Shown piece after piece: positions 28,349 through 35,539 of a DNA stretch of 64,000 nt (positions are counted from its first letter, which is position 1; every line of letters starts with the position of its first letter). Made by a program: the position numbers and the translations under genes. This DNA comes from Armatimonadetes bacterium Uphvl-Ar1. GTDB taxonomy: Bacteria > Armatimonadota > Fimbriimonadia > Fimbriimonadales > Fimbriimonadaceae. Location of the stretch: the NCBI GenBank assembly GCA_002162075.1, contig CP021423.1, forward strand, positions 682,001-746,000. The letters run 5' to 3'. The notes beneath the pieces are model-generated. The model had not been told where the DNA came from. It did not search any database and saw nothing but the letters and a program-made list of their open reading frames with translations.

Positions 28349-29032
28349 TTACTTGCGTTTGCGTCGAGCGGCTACGGCGGCGAGGCCACCCAGCACAAGA
28401 AGGGTAGCGGGTTCGGGGACAGCTTCGTAGCTGACGGTATCGAGACCGATATAGTCTGAGTTTGCTCCGCTTGGACCACCATTTTCGACGAAGTATCGGA
28501 AGGCAAAGCGACCAGTTGTGGGTGCGCCGAGACCTGATACGTTCACCGTAAATTGTGTCCAGACATCTGGATAGCCACCATTTGCAGTTGAGAGATAGGT
28601 CGGGTTGATGTCGAGGAGTACATTTGTGAAGTCACCGATACCGGTTATACCGGCCCCCGTATTTGTACTAGAACCTGCTGTGCTCATTCGTACTTGAAGT
28701 CTGTCGGCAAAGTTACTGGTCGCCTTCCTAGTCCAAAAACTTAGGGTACTTCCATTTACTAACGCAACCTCGGGTGTTACTAACCAATTGCTGATCGTAC
28801 CTGCGCCCGTTGTATTGTTAAAGTTGGCTCCAATGTATGCATTCGCGGCACCAGCTTGAGAGGTGAACACGGTGTCGTTCCCTTGAAACCATCCGATCGT
28901 ACCGACGGGGTTGCTTTGATTACTGGTTGACCAGCCAGCCGCACCGAGCGTGGTGATGTCATTGAAGTCTTGGGTGAATGCAAAAGCTGACGCCGAGGCA
29001 GCGAGGGTTGCGATGAGCAGAACGTTTTTCAT
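28349..29032 (-). CDS. PEP-CTERM protein with choice-of-anchor J-type domain
   Basis: A 227-residue secreted protein: signal peptide (residues 1-18, MKNVLLIATLAASASAFA), then a beta-sandwich typical of the cleaved-adhesin/choice-of-anchor J group (FNDITTLGAAGWSTSNQS, SNWLVTPEVAL, LSFWTRKAT), and a C-terminal VPEPATLLVLGGLAAVAARR sorting signal. It is not closely related to the two PEP-CTERM paralogues upstream. An exosortase elsewhere in the genome would be needed. Confidence 0.88.
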   Translation of the reverse strand: MKNVLLIATLAASASAFAFTQDFNDITTLGAAGWSTSNQSNPVGTIGWFQGNDTVFTSQAGAANAYIGANFNNTTGAGTISNWLVTPEVALVNGSTLSFWTRKATSNFADRLQVRMSTAGSSTNTGAGITGIGDFTNVLLDINPTYLSTANGGYPDVWTQFTVNVSGLGAPTTGRFAFRYFVENGGPSGANSDYIGLDTVSYEAVPEPATLLVLGGLAAVAARRKRK

Positions 29033-29311
29033 ATCGTTTTCCTTCTCCGAAAAAGAGGCCCTCTCAATACGAAGGCACTCAGTTCCCTTTATGGTAACAG
29101 CTATTTGTGATGAAAAGCACTAGAATTGTTCCCAGGTGTTGGCACATAGCCACAAATTTCCCCTTGAACTAGCAAATATACGGTGTTCATTAAGGTTTGG
29201 GAGGCCCGTGGATGTTACGGGGGAGGTGGTTATACTCGGCTTCAAGTTCCCACCGTTTTGTCAATGTCGCCAGGGCGAGTGGGCTTTCCAGTTGAGATAC
29301 AGGAACGACCC

Positions 29312-32008
29312 ATGAGCGAAAAACGAGTTTATCTTTTCCGAGAAGGAAATCAGACGATGCGCGACCTCCTTGGTGGTAAGGGCGCAAACCTTGCAGAAAT
29401 GACCAACATTGGTCTTCCGGTTCCTCCGGGATTCACGATCACGACCGACGTTTGCCGGGAGTACTACGCGACGGGGAAACAGTTGCCAGCGGCATTGCGT
29501 GCCGAATTGGAAACAGCGGTGGCAGATGTTGAAAAAGAAATGGGCCGCACATTTGGTGGTTCAGAAAAGCCATTGCTCGTGTCGGTTCGGTCTGGTTCAA
29601 AGTTCTCGATGCCGGGGATGATGGATACGGTTTTGAACCTTGGTTTGAATGAGACGACGGTTGCGGCGATGATCAAGGAAACGGGCAACGCTCGATTTGT
29701 CTATGATAGCTACCGCCGCTTGATCATGATGCTCAGTGATGTTGCTTTTGGTTTGAGCAAGCACCATTTTGACAACGAGATTTTTTCAGCTTACAAGCGC
29801 AAAGTTGGCGCGAAAGGCGACCTTGATTTGACGGCTGATGACTTGCGGAATGTTTGCGACGAGTTTTTGGCTTATGTGAAAGAAAAGACTGGACATGACT
29901 TCCCCAGCGATCCTTGGGAGCAGTTGATGGCGGGGATTGAGGCGGTGTTCCGTAGCTGGGACAACGATCGGGCGAAAGTATATCGGCGAACGGAGAAGAT
30001 TCCGGACGAGATTGGTACGGCCGTGAACATTCAGTCCATGGTTTATGGAAACGCGGGTGAGGATTGCGGCACGGGGGTTGCGTTTACGCGAGACCCGAGT
30101 ACGGGCGAGAAGTATCTCTTTGGTGAGTATTTGATGAATGCCCAGGGTGAGGATGTTGTTGCGGGGGTGAGAACTCCGGTTCCGATCAGCGAATTGGAAA
30201 AGCAGAATCCGGAGGTTTACAATAAGTTCATTGAGACCTGCGATAAGTTAGAAGCTCATTACAAGGAGATGCAGGATCTGGAGTTTACGATTGAGCACGG
30301 GAAGCTGTTTATGCTTCAGTGCCGAACGGGTAAACGCACTGGCCCGGCGGCAGTTCGGATTGCCGTTGAAATGGTGAAAGAGGGGTTGATCAGTCGCGAG
30401 GAAGCAATTCAGCGTGTTTCAGGATCACATCTTGACCAGTTGCTTCACCCGCGTATTGATCCGGATGTCTTGGACAAAGCGGTTGAACTGGCAAAAGGCT
30501 TGCCGGCATCTCCGGGTGCGGCGGTTGGGAAGGTCGTTTTCACGGCAAACAAGGCGGCCGAGATTGGCGTTCATGGAGGGGCAGGTGAAAAGGTCTTGCT
30601 TGTTCGTGAAGAAACGAATCCGGATGACGTTCATGGAATGCTGGCGGCTCAAGGTGTTTTGACGGCACGCGGTGGCAAAACAAGCCACGCCGCAGTTGTT
30701 GCTCGTGGATTTGGGATTCCTTGTGTTGCGGGGGCCGAGTCAATTCACATTGATGAGAAGGCGCATTACTTTGAAGTCAATGGTCACACGGTGAAGGAAG
30801 GCGATGTGATCACGATGGATGGTTCGAGCGGAAAGGTCTATTTGGGTGAGCTGAAGCTGATCGCACCGGAAGTCAGCGGTTCATTTGGTGAATTGATGGC
30901 CTGGGCCGACGAATTCCGTACCTTGAAGGTGCGCACCAATGCGGACAATCCTCGGGATGCTCAGCAGGCTCTTGAATTTGGTGCCGAAGGAATTGGTCTA
31001 TGCCGTACGGAGCACATGTTCTTTGAAGCAGACCGGTTGCCGCTGGTTCAGGAGTTGATCTTGAGCAAGGATCCGGCAGTTCAGCAAGAAATGTTGGATA
31101 AGCTGCAAGTTGTTCAGCAGGGCGACTTTGAAGGGATTTTCGAAGCGATGGACGGCAAGCCAGTCACGATTCGTTTGATTGACCCGCCGCTCCATGAATT
31201 TCTGCCGAGCAAAGACGAATTGATTCGAGAAGTTTCTGATTTGTCGCATCGAGCGCAGACGAATTCCGAACTGAAATCAAAGTTGGAAGAGAAGCAGAAA
31301 TTGCTCCATGAAGTTGAGGCAATGAGCGAAGCGAACCCGATGATGGGCTTACGGGGCGTTCGGCTTTCGATTATTCTTCCGGGCTTGGTTGTGATGCAGA
31401 CGCGGGCAATTTTGCAAGCTGCATGCAAGCTGACCAAGGCGGGCAAGACGGTTTTGCCAGAGATTATGATTCCGCTTGTTTCGACCGTAAATGAGCTTCG
31501 GGTTGTTCAGAATCAGTTGGAAGCGGAAGCGAAGAAGATCATGAGTGAGCAAGGGATTGACGTTGCTTACCAGTTTGGAACTATGATCGAAATTCCTCGG
31601 GCGGCATTGACCAGTGGTGAGATTGCGGAGTATGCGCAGTTCTTTAGCTTTGGCACGAACGACTTGACTCAGATGACCTTTGGATACAGTCGGGATGATG
31701 CGGAAGGGAAGTTCTTGCAGACTTACGTAGAGAAGAAAATCTTGGCCACGAATCCGTTTGAATCGATTGATCAGACGGGGGTTGGTCGCCTGATGAAGTT
31801 GTCCGTTGCGGAAGGACGGGCGGCTCGTCCGGGCTTGAAGTGTGGCATTTGTGGCGAGCACGGTGGTGATCCGGAATCGGTTCACTTCTGCCATGAGATT
31901 GGCTTGGATTATGTGAGTTGTTCACCGTTCCGAGTTCCGATTGCACGATTGGCGGCGGCACAGGCGGCGGTTAAAGATCGGGTTAAGGTCGGCGCGGCGG
32001 ACAAGTAA
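29312..32008 (+). CDS. ppdK: Pyruvate, phosphate dikinase
   Basis: Interconverts pyruvate, ATP and phosphate with PEP, AMP and pyrophosphate. The 898-residue protein has the complete domain order: an ATP-grasp domain starting RVYLFREGNQTMRDLLGGKG, the phosphohistidine domain with GGKTSHAAVVARG near residue 455, and the C-terminal PEP/pyruvate barrel ending with CGICGEHGGDPESV. The ATG at 29312 has AGGA upstream; earlier in-frame starts would add 43 atypical residues. A diverged copy of its last codons is found at 32853-32895. The 280-bp gap upstream holds the promoters of this and the divergent PEP-CTERM gene, but I could not place them. Confidence 0.97.
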   Translation: MSEKRVYLFREGNQTMRDLLGGKGANLAEMTNIGLPVPPGFTITTDVCREYYATGKQLPAALRAELETAVADVEKEMGRTFGGSEKPLLVSVRSGSKFSMPGMMDTVLNLGLNETTVAAMIKETGNARFVYDSYRRLIMMLSDVAFGLSKHHFDNEIFSAYKRKVGAKGDLDLTADDLRNVCDEFLAYVKEKTGHDFPSDPWEQLMAGIEAVFRSWDNDRAKVYRRTEKIPDEIGTAVNIQSMVYGNAGEDCGTGVAFTRDPSTGEKYLFGEYLMNAQGEDVVAGVRTPVPISELEKQNPEVYNKFIETCDKLEAHYKEMQDLEFTIEHGKLFMLQCRTGKRTGPAAVRIAVEMVKEGLISREEAIQRVSGSHLDQLLHPRIDPDVLDKAVELAKGLPASPGAAVGKVVFTANKAAEIGVHGGAGEKVLLVREETNPDDVHGMLAAQGVLTARGGKTSHAAVVARGFGIPCVAGAESIHIDEKAHYFEVNGHTVKEGDVITMDGSSGKVYLGELKLIAPEVSGSFGELMAWADEFRTLKVRTNADNPRDAQQALEFGAEGIGLCRTEHMFFEADRLPLVQELILSKDPAVQQEMLDKLQVVQQGDFEGIFEAMDGKPVTIRLIDPPLHEFLPSKDELIREVSDLSHRAQTNSELKSKLEEKQKLLHEVEAMSEANPMMGLRGVRLSIILPGLVVMQTRAILQAACKLTKAGKTVLPEIMIPLVSTVNELRVVQNQLEAEAKKIMSEQGIDVAYQFGTMIEIPRAALTSGEIAEYAQFFSFGTNDLTQMTFGYSRDDAEGKFLQTYVEKKILATNPFESIDQTGVGRLMKLSVAEGRAARPGLKCGICGEHGGDPESVHFCHEIGLDYVSCSPFRVPIARLAAAQAAVKDRVKVGAADK

Positions 32009-32023
32009 GTTCGGTCATTTATG

Positions 32024-32057
32024 GGCTCCCCGTTCACTTTTTGGTGGACGGGGAGCC
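32024..32057 (+). terminator. Hairpin after ppdK
   Basis: GGCTCCCCGT (32024-32033) pairs with ACGGGGAGCC (32048-32057). The T-tract is weak, so termination may be partial. Confidence 0.65.
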
Positions 32058-32083
32058 AGTTATTAGGGTAATTTTTTGAGACT

Positions 32084-32617
32084 ATGAATACTCGAGTTGG
32101 AGATGACTATCCGCAACAGTTAATTGGCGAATTGAATCTAGTTTCAGGAAAAGTTCACGTTGGCGATGGACAGTTCATTCCCGGTGATCCTTCTTTTATT
32201 GGAATGCTTGACAGCGCTGTTTATGAAGTTTGGGTAAAAGTAGCATCGACGGAGGACGGAGATCGAGTCAGATGCCTTTGGATGGTTCGACCAGGGTTTG
32301 TTACTACTCAGAAAGCGGAAGCTGGATCGACTTGGGCAGATACGGCAACTATTGGCTTTTGTGATTCATCTTTGGCAGAGCCTGAGTATACGGTAGAGCA
32401 AAACGACGAGTACTTAGACAGGCTTTGGAAAGCAACAGAGTCCGCTCAGTATGCAGCATTTACGCCCTTGGAAGGTGTCGTTGGAAAGGTGTTTGTCGCT
32501 TCGAGTGGCTTTGGCGACGGCGATTTTCTCGTCGAGTACCTCTTAGATAGCCAAGGTGGTAAAGGCGGACTGATCGTTACCTTTTTCAAATGGGGTCAGT
32601 TGTATAGCTCTGAGTAG
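32084..32617 (+). CDS. Hypothetical cytoplasmic protein
   Basis: A 177-residue acidic protein with no signal peptide or membrane segment. It begins MNTRVGDDYPQQLIGELNLV and has a central VYEVWVKVAS strand and a C-terminal GKGGLIVTFFKWG. I do not recognise the family. Its base composition looks more AT-rich than its neighbours. It sits inside a duplicated, partly decayed segment between ppdK and the HNH gene, so it may be an insertion or relic cargo. The start has no strong ribosome-binding site. Confidence 0.5.
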   Translation: MNTRVGDDYPQQLIGELNLVSGKVHVGDGQFIPGDPSFIGMLDSAVYEVWVKVASTEDGDRVRCLWMVRPGFVTTQKAEAGSTWADTATIGFCDSSLAEPEYTVEQNDEYLDRLWKATESAQYAAFTPLEGVVGKVFVASSGFGDGDFLVEYLLDSQGGKGGLIVTFFKWGQLYSSE

Positions 32618-32769
32618 TTGATTTGAAGACGAAGCCGGAGCGAGTTTTCTGGAATATTTGAACAAGTCACTAGTGCCCTAAAGCAAACCATAGAGAATAC
32701 AATGCTTGCGAATTTGCAGAGCAAGGTGGAAAGGATTGATAAGGTAATCCCAGTCTACACTCAGAGATG

Positions 32770-32835
32770 ATTAGTTCACAGTTATCTGTTGAAACTCTTT
32801 GAAGATGAGTGAAGTAGTATGTCCATTTCTCTGTC
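32770..32835 (-). pseudogene. Relic of the 3' end of an HNH endonuclease gene
   Basis: On the minus strand this region matches the last 20 or so codons of the intact HNH gene (33352-33420): both share TTCAAAGAGTTTCAACA and the GTGAACTA ending, with many substitutions and a one-base insertion that breaks the frame. No upstream part of the gene remains. Confidence 0.8.
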
Positions 32836-32852
32836 CTAGGGAACGCCACGTT

Positions 32853-32942
32853 CAATATGCGGCGGTTCAGGATCGAGTTAAGGTTGGGGCCCTGGAGAAG
32901 GAAGCTCGGTTAGTGGCTGCGATCCCCGCTGGGCTTTACTGA
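32853..32942 (+). pseudogene. Relic of the 3' end of ppdK
   Basis: The reading AAVQDRVKVGA matches the ppdK C-terminus AAVKDRVKVGA, and the DNA shares most bases over about 32 positions (GCGGCGGTT..GATCG.GTTAAGGT). The remaining frame ends at TGA 32942, directly before a terminator. No start codon or upstream ppdK sequence is present. Confidence 0.8.
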
Positions 32943-32961
32943 GCATCGGGTTTTTTTTTTT
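32923..32961 (+). terminator. Terminator after the ppdK relic
   Basis: An imperfect GC stem (CCCGCT with AGCATCGGG) is followed by eleven T (32951-32961). It may be what is left of an ancestral ppdK terminator. Confidence 0.7.
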
Positions 32962-32998
32962 GTTAGTGCAAAGATGTAGCGGGTATTCTTAGCCCGTC

Positions 32999-33355
32999 AT
33001 GAGCTTTAAAGTGGAGAGTATAGCGGCGATGGTTCCCTCCACCGATTTGGAAAGATCAGTTGGATTTTTGGTTGATAGGTTGGGTTTTGAGTTAGTGTTT
33101 TCAACTGAAACGTACTGCATTTTGGTTCGAGATGGGTTTGAGTTTCATTTGCAACGAGCGGGTGAAGGCGTTGGGCAGATAGCAATTTATATTAAGGTTG
33201 ATGACGTTGAGGCAGTATGGGACCGTTTACAGGGCCATTTGGACGGGATTCGGCACAAGGCTCCGTTTGACCAGGAGTACCAGATGCGGGAAATCCATGT
33301 TGATCTTCCTTCGACTCAGGCTTCGTTCTTTATCGGTCAGCCGATTGGTGATTAG
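32999..33355 (+). CDS. VOC-family (glyoxalase/bleomycin-resistance fold) protein
   Basis: A 118-residue single vicinal-oxygen-chelate module. The typical layout is visible: VPSTDLERSVGFLVDRLGFEL in the first half, FEFHLQRA, then IAIYIKVDDVEAVWDRL and a final strand VDLPSTQASFFIGQP. Such proteins bind metals or small hydrophobic ligands as lyases, dioxygenases or resistance proteins. The substrate is unknown. Its 3' end overlaps the convergent HNH gene by 4 bp, within the duplicated ppdK/HNH junction. Confidence 0.85.
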   Translation: MSFKVESIAAMVPSTDLERSVGFLVDRLGFELVFSTETYCILVRDGFEFHLQRAGEGVGQIAIYIKVDDVEAVWDRLQGHLDGIRHKAPFDQEYQMREIHVDLPSTQASFFIGQPIGD

Positions 33356-33888
33356 TTCACTGTTTTTTGTTGAAACTCTTTGAAGATGGGGAGGTAGTAC
33401 GCCCATTGTTCTTTTTCGATGGCGGTCATGTAGGATTGGAGGCTAAGGTACGGGACGTAATGGGGTTGTTTTGGCTGCTTTTTGAGTTTCATGCCAGCTT
33501 GGAGCGGGGTTTTGTCGGCTTTTTTGAGGTTGCATTTACGACAGCAGGTGACGAGGTTTTCCCATGTGTGGGGGCCGCCGCACCAACGCGGGACAACGTG
33601 GTCGAGGGTGAGGTCGCGGGTTGACCCGCAGTATTGGCATTCGTAGTTATCGCGAGCGAGGATGCTGTGGCGGGAGAGACGCAACCGAGGTAGTGGGCGC
33701 TTGACTTGGTAGCGCATTCGGACGACGGACGGCATGGTGTGTTCGCCGGCGAAAGTTTTGTATTCTCGCCCCGCATCTTCGATGATTTCGGCTTTGCCGA
33801 GGATGAGGAGCGTGACGGCACGCCTGAGGTTGCAGACGTTCAGCGGCTCATAGTTGGCGTTGAGCAGAAGGACTTCATGTTTGGCCAT
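33352..33888 (-). CDS. HNH endonuclease family protein
   Basis: A 178-residue protein. N-terminal VLLLNANYEPLNVCNLRRA followed by the HNH core: CQYCGSTRDLTLDHVVPR near residue 82 and ENLVTCCRKCNLKKADKTP near 110. The four cysteines (CxxC twice) hold a structural zinc, and the DHVVPR His with the later Asn build the metal site. This is the common stand-alone housekeeping HNH type of unknown physiological role. The ATG at 33888 has GAGGTG upstream; a longer upstream frame lacks homology-like features. A decayed copy of its 3' end lies at 32770. Confidence 0.92.
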   Translation of the reverse strand: MAKHEVLLLNANYEPLNVCNLRRAVTLLILGKAEIIEDAGREYKTFAGEHTMPSVVRMRYQVKRPLPRLRLSRHSILARDNYECQYCGSTRDLTLDHVVPRWCGGPHTWENLVTCCRKCNLKKADKTPLQAGMKLKKQPKQPHYVPYLSLQSYMTAIEKEQWAYYLPIFKEFQQKTVN

Positions 33889-33929
33889 TGGGTTCACCTC
33901 GTTCGATGGGGGTTTGCGGGTTCTGGTAC

Positions 33930-34035
33930 AAAAAAACCCGCGTGTCTCACCGAAACGCGGGTTGGAGTGACACCAAGACGTTGGTGTATTAGGGTGTCGA
34001 ATTGAGTCGGAGGACACCCGCAATGTTTCACCAAG
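33930..34035 (-). ncRNA. Candidate structured RNA or attenuator with three hairpins
   Basis: Read on the minus strand, three hairpins follow each other: GGGTGTC/GACACCC (34019-34013 with 33998-33992), ACACCAA/TTGGTGT (33987-33981 with 33976-33970) and AACCCGCG/CGCGGGTT (33963-33956 with 33942-33935), the last running into seven T. This is a terminator 42 bp upstream of the HNH start. It may be a small RNA or a leader that attenuates the HNH gene. No known family is recognised, and no clear promoter was found in the remaining gap to murA. Confidence 0.45.
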
Positions 34036-34246
34036 TTCTGATCGCAAACTTGCATCACTTGCTATTAAAACGGATTTCCCGAATGTTTTGGCGCAGTTTT
34101 TTTCATCTCTTAACAAAAAAATTGATTTCGGGTGGAATTTGCGGGTGAGCATCCTTTGCCCGAGGCATAACGTCCGGTAAAATGCGCAGGTTAATCGGCT
34201 GGGTGTGCCTGGTTGGTTGTAACGCCATGGATGGTGAGTGACTGAG

Positions 34247-35539
34247 ATGAATGTTTTGCGAATTGAGGGTGGACGACCTTTGCGGGGGTCGGTTGACATT
34301 GCGGGCAGCAAGAATGCGGCTTTGGCGATTTTGGCATCTGTGCCCTTGGTGGATGGCACGGTAGTTTTGACCAATGTGCCGGAGATTAGTGACATTCACA
34401 TCAAGTTGAATTTGCTTCGGCGGTTGGGGGTGGAGTCGGAGTTTCGGGAAGGAACGCTTTTTATTGATACCAAAGGCTTGAAAGCGGCGGAGCTTCCGGA
34501 GGAAGAAGTCCGGAAAATTCGGACGGGGTTTTATATGTTGGGGCCGTTGCTTATGCGGCTGGGATCAATTTCGTTGCCGATGCCGGGGGGATGCAAAATT
34601 GGGGCCCGTCCAGTTGATTTTCACTTGAAAGGGCTTCGGGCACTTGGGGCAACTATTGAAACTTTATCGGGGAACTATGTGGCGAATTCGACAGGGGTCG
34701 AAGGGACGGAGATTTATCTGGATGCTCCGAGTGCAGGGGCGACTCAGCATTTGCTTGCAACGGCAACGCTTGTTCCGGGTCATACGGTGATTCAAAATGC
34801 TTCGATTGAGCCGGAAGTCGTGAGCTTGGCGGGCTTTTTGCAATCGGCGGGGGCGAAGATTGAAGGTGCGGGTACGAGCACGATTACGGTAACGGGAGTT
34901 GAGAAACTCACAGATTGTCGGTATTCGGTGCCAGCCGACCGGATGCAGGCGGGGACTTATTTGCTTGCGGCGGCGATCACGGGGGGAGACGTTACTGCGC
35001 GGGGAATTTTGCCCGAAGAACAGACGGCATTGGTGAATAAGCTCCGGGAAGCGGGCTTTTTTGCTGAAGAGGGTAACGATTGGGTGCGCGTTTGGGCGGA
35101 AGGCCGAGGCCGGGGAATCCGGGTCAAGACAATGCCCTATCCTGGGTTTCCAACTGATATTCAGCAGCCGATGGCAGCGGTGCTGGCGTTGGCAGATGGT
35201 CCAAGCTCGATTGAAGAGACGATCTATGAGAGTCGGATTGGTCATATTTCTGAGCTAGAGCGGATGGGGGCAAATGTCCGGGTTGAAGGGCGATCGACTT
35301 TGATTGAAGGCGTTAAGCAATTGCAAGGTGCGGTTGTCGAGGCGAGCGATTTGCGGGCAGGGGCGGCTTTGTGTTTGGCGGCGTTTGCGGCAAGTGGCGA
35401 GACGGTGATCCGGAATGTGATCTATATTGATCGTGGCTACCAGGATTTGGAAAAGAACTTTACGCAACTGGGTGGCAAGATTGAACGTTTGAGTGAAGAG
35501 GAGTGGGCTCGTCAAAGCGAGTCTGTAGAGCAGAAATAA
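34247..35539 (+). CDS. murA: UDP-N-acetylglucosamine 1-carboxyvinyltransferase
   Basis: Catalyses the first committed step of peptidoglycan synthesis, adding enolpyruvate from PEP to UDP-GlcNAc. About 430 residues with the inside-out alpha/beta barrel blocks [12 protein letters not shown] at the N-terminus, [15 protein letters not shown] with the catalytic cysteine at residue 116, and [13 protein letters not shown] near residue 300. The cysteine predicts fosfomycin binding. I chose ATG 34247 over GTG 34238. It is followed one base after its stop by mreB, an arrangement common in diderm bacteria. Confidence 0.97.

Follow-up and report, generated by a model that had tools for sequence, protein, structure and literature searches.

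Decayed gene ends between ppdK and a convergent HNH gene: probable traces of an old tandem partial duplication in a Fimbriimonadaceae genome

Decayed copies of gene ends at the ppdK-HNH junction

The interval between the pyruvate phosphate dikinase gene (ppdK) and a convergent HNH endonuclease gene holds decayed copies of the 3′ ends of both genes, and very probably preserves some form of tandem partial duplication at this junction (Table 1). The order is ppdK, HNH relic, ppdK relic, HNH (that is, A-B′-A′-B), with the copies in direct orientation and only 7 nt between the two relics. The window (the whole stretch of DNA analysed, 64,000 nucleotides long) belongs to an uncultured Fimbriimonadaceae bacterium whose 2.99 Mb genome (G000) is a single contig; the relatives named below are metagenome-assembled genomes (MAGs) of Fimbriimonadaceae (Armatimonadota), among which G006 (MAG BC.035) is the sister species. 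In our view an old tandem partial duplication explains the locus well; it is a clear but unremarkable trace of how genomes evolve and involves no new system.

Table 1. Features of the ppdK-HNH interval and its surroundings, in window coordinates
Feature	Position	Strand	Remarks
ppdK, intact 3′ end	31964..32057	+	stop 32008; pyruvate phosphate dikinase, Pfam PPDK_N / PEP-utilizers
Terminator hairpin of intact ppdK	32024-32057	+	inverted repeat; strong hairpin, z -7.0
Accessory gene, 177 aa	32084..32617	+	weakly DUF4241-like; PF14025 E 0.0015, below cut-off
ORF remnant, start-less C-terminal part	32657..32770	+	FEQVTSALKQ...PVYTQR*; TGA overlaps the beginning of the HNH relic
HNH 3′ end relic	32768..32851	-	direct repeat, local alignment; 1-nt insertion and missense changes common to G006
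ppdK 3′ end relic	32859..32910	+	direct repeat, local alignment; AVQDRVKVGALEK vs AVKDRVKVGAADK (intact)
ppdK terminator region, decayed copy	32911..32962	+	alignment extends to CCCCG stem
VOC-superfamily gene, 118 aa	32999..33355	+	glyoxalase / bleomycin-resistance-like; PF00903 above cut-off
Recent inter-species recombination tract	33020..34140 (to about 34300)		VOC, HNH, murA upstream region
HNH endonuclease gene, intact, convergent, 179 aa	33352..33891	-	PF14279 / PF01844

A direct-repeat search paired 31964-32015 with 32859-32910 for ppdK (52 nt, 79%) and 32768-32807 with 33349-33388 for HNH (40 nt, 93%), and in a self-comparison of the window these two pairs were the sole local direct repeats scoring 45 bits or more. 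The local alignment score of the HNH relic is 87 (2000 dinucleotide shuffles reached at most 39, and 1587 window pieces at most 45), and that of the ppdK relic is 65 (maximum 43 in the shuffles and 44 in the window pieces); since both exceed the shuffle and genomic maxima, the relics are real and their order is as reported. The sequence-only reading had described a decayed HNH end (32770-32835) followed by a decayed ppdK end (32853-32895), and had proposed comparing them with shuffled sequence; the repeats and the alignments confirm both copies, at slightly greater length, and both clearly outscore the shuffles. By local alignment, the HNH copy extends to about 32851, and the ppdK copy passes the stop position into the terminator and reaches about 32942; with the decayed terminator region included, the ppdK copy runs to about 32962.

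The relics and the copied terminator are decayed, functionless DNA, with a frameshift, lost and new stop codons, and a collapsed hairpin. After the split of the two species the ppdK relic lost its stop codon in G000 and acquired a new, extra stop in G006, and the copied hairpin is about as stable as shuffled sequence (z of -1.1 in G000 and -0.65 in G006; the intact hairpins reach -7.0 and -3.7); the idea of an alternative terminator preserved behind the ppdK relic was dropped, its hairpin being no better than shuffled. Relic divergence between G000 and G006 is 0.15, and intergenic DNA outside exchange tracts diverges by 0.12-0.16. We had suspected from the coding dS of 0.4-0.6 that the relic was younger than the species split, and abandoned this view since the intergenic divergence matches that of the relic.

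The relics of both species have in common the 1-nt insertion in the HNH copy and eight base differences of the ppdK copy from the intact end, so the duplication is older than the species split. The HNH relic is nearest to the G000/G006 HNH end in 1997 of 2000 bootstraps and has lineage-specific bases in common with it, which places the origin of the duplication in this lineage or a close one. For the ppdK relic, the ends of G000, G006, and G007 are equally near and those of the other congeners farther away. Import of the ppdK end from a known congener was rejected, since none of G004, G003, G005, and G002 comes closer to the relic than the G000/G006/G007 group does.

Contents of the interval across the genus

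The HNH gene is present in 60 of 61 relatives, and its murA neighbour is conserved in many of them. Of the eight genomes of the genus examined, six have ppdK next to HNH; in G002 and G001 the two genes lie on separate contigs. Five content states of the ppdK-HNH interval are found in the six genomes: G006 matches G000 in its relics, their order, and its two cargo genes; G004 has an empty slot, with 74 bp between the ppdK and HNH stops; the G007 slot (L034 2286-2582) contains a decayed ORF ending flush at the HNH stop; the G003 slot (L035) contains a TspO/MBR gene and a 91-aa second ORF; and the G005 slot (L036) contains TspO/MBR alone, with about 10 nt left of the second ORF of G003. The last cargo ORF stops at or beside the HNH stop codon in G000, G006, G007, and G003, and no integrase or IS was seen in the interval. 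The ppdK-HNH interval is thus a small gene-turnover slot.

By the same alignment test the relics are absent from the slots of G004, G007, G003, and G005, so that the unduplicated junction which the sequence-only reading hoped to find in relatives exists in four of them; a different arrangement of the relics was not encountered, G006, the only other relic-bearing genome, having the same one. Together, the alignment scores and the junctions of the relatives support its proposal that a segment spanning the convergent junction was duplicated in tandem and the inner ends decayed. Its further suggestion, that the two small genes were possibly gained since the duplication, does not necessarily follow: several relatives hold other cargo in this slot, and each of the two cargo stretches finishes directly at the HNH stop.

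Within the genus the 177-aa gene occurs in G000 and G006 only, and homologues of 32-34% are found in two other Fimbriimonadaceae genera. Its protein contains the motifs TWADTxTxGxCD and GFGDG; searches returned no plasmid match, no NCBIfam family, and no PADLOC match, and the AlphaFold model (pLDDT 34) is unusable. The ORF remnant belongs to no Pfam family and has no homologue outside G000 and G006. The VOC gene is otherwise found in the genus only in G006, at the same locus, apart from a distant copy elsewhere in G002. These cargo genes and the remnant need no new kind of system. Over 32618-32783, from the ORF remnant into the first part of the HNH relic, divergence between the two species is only 2%, lower than in the adjacent relics, and reflects either exchange or constraint.

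Exchange between the sister species

The VOC-HNH half of the slot has recently been exchanged between the G000 and G006 lineages, which thus trade DNA at precisely this slot. There are 10 mismatches in the 1121 nt of 33020-34140, and identity to G006 is about 99% over 33020-34300 and about 90% in the surroundings. The dS between the two species is 0.041 for VOC and 0.043 for HNH, compared with 0.59 for most of ppdK, 0.37 for murA, and 0.37-0.64 for the flanking genes. The non-coding stretch upstream of HNH has an equally low divergence (0.008), so the similarity is due to exchange and not to constraint. The genome carries competence-type ComEC and DprA family genes; this gene content, from which alone competence is inferred, permits natural transformation without proving it. 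A second stretch of low divergence between G000 and G006 lies at 28400-29400 of the window, with a dS of 0.16 in a PEP-CTERM-type gene and an intergenic divergence of 0.02, and is possibly another exchange tract.

Hotspots of horizontal gene transfer without mobile elements, in which recombination in flanking core genes drives diversification, have been described (PMC5635113). The ppdK-HNH interval resembles them in lying between core genes, in holding different small genes across relatives without an integrase or IS, and in that its flanking core gene HNH sits in a recent recombination tract; it differs in that the slot is tiny (0 to 2 genes) and in that our comparison is between species rather than strains. 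In this locus-level comparison HNH has one clear recombination tract, and other tracts of low divergence lie nearby (28.4-29.4 kb).

Origin of the arrangement

Any route to the present order needs one off-register joint, of an HNH tail to a ppdK tail. At the joint (32852-32858) no clear microhomology is visible by eye, and the joint is heavily decayed. We favour a single off-register recombination at the junction between two versions of the locus, different alleles that already carried the DUF4241-like and the VOC cargo, and give this one-step reading about an even chance. Such an event would have fused one version's HNH 3′ end to the other's ppdK 3′ end and given ppdK - cargo A - HNH tail / ppdK tail - cargo B - HNH. 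The tails and the terminator left on the inside, being without function, would then have decayed and been inherited by both species. One possible route is transformation, with one end of the incoming fragment joined by homology and the opposite end illegitimately. Such joining of two alleles is plausible because the cargo of the slot differs among relatives, and the varied cargo, together with cargo lying flush at the HNH stop, makes it at least as likely as later gain of the cargo. A locus with a single cargo gene (ppdK-DUF-HNH only, or ppdK-VOC-HNH only) was not found among the genomes compared, so we infer the two-allele step rather than observe it. The shortness of the relics and the lack of visible microhomology at the joint also speak against it, as does the fact that decay by itself could account for the differences in the ppdK relic.

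Comparable mechanisms are known. Natural transformation via alternative pairing generates tandem duplications, possibly very large, at repeats common to donor and host (PMC3784515); the ppdK-HNH copy is likewise a tandem segment copy attributable to unequal recombination, but it is short and its joint has no visible repeat. One-sided homology-facilitated illegitimate recombination has also been described (PMC3240628), and the joint would arise in a single step if one end recombined homologously and the other illegitimately, although the mechanism at ppdK-HNH is not demonstrable from sequence.

The main competitor, which we hold to be a realistic though lesser candidate, is that an empty short junction, as in G004, was tandemly duplicated within one genome and then gained two small genes independently. 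The empty 74-bp junction is a known state, the HNH relic closely resembles the HNH gene of its own lineage, and the inner tails and terminator resemble neutral decay, with relic divergence near that of intergenic DNA; however, this history takes three events where joining of two alleles takes one, and each of the two insertions would have had to reach right up to an HNH stop, in one case the stop of a copy that no longer had any use. We therefore prefer the one-step joining of two alleles. Two successive fragment insertions, each bringing a piece of a flanking gene and without tandem duplication as such, would give the same order, and slot content does turn over, as the TspO and second ORF of G003 and the few nucleotides left in G005 illustrate; this course is less parsimonious, and the gap of only 7 nt between the relics is what a single joint predicts, so we think it quite unlikely. 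Chance similarity, or convergence in the composition of terminators or gene ends, is hardly credible even for relics as short as 84 nt (HNH) and 52 nt (ppdK), whose scores greatly exceed those of all 2000 shuffles and all 1587 genomic pieces in a test for which four relatives' slots are negative.

If alleles were indeed joined off register, relics of neighbour-gene tails can mark such recombination, which puts two accessory genes in one slot with no mobile element needed, and gene order at one small site can record the arrival of accessory genes. A broader reading, that ppdK-HNH is a hotspot that repeatedly adds alleles with different cargo side by side instead of replacing them, seems improbable to us; if true, decayed tails of neighbouring genes would be signs of gene capture by addition, with no mobile element involved. 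Apart from carrying two small genes, the organism is probably unaffected.

Among the local repeats inspected in 400 kb of other G000 stretches, which are mainly tandem paralogous genes, no junction relics were found. Prepilin-like genes in tandem at L116 14232-16484 (G000:C1, near 1.364 Mb) have starts that are 80% identical and two 47-nt terminators that are 100% identical, likewise in the order A-B′-A′-B. At L122 7009-8682 (G000:C1, near 2.507 Mb), two adjacent paralogous genes are 94% identical over their last 160 nt and diverged over the rest, a pattern that suggests local gene conversion.
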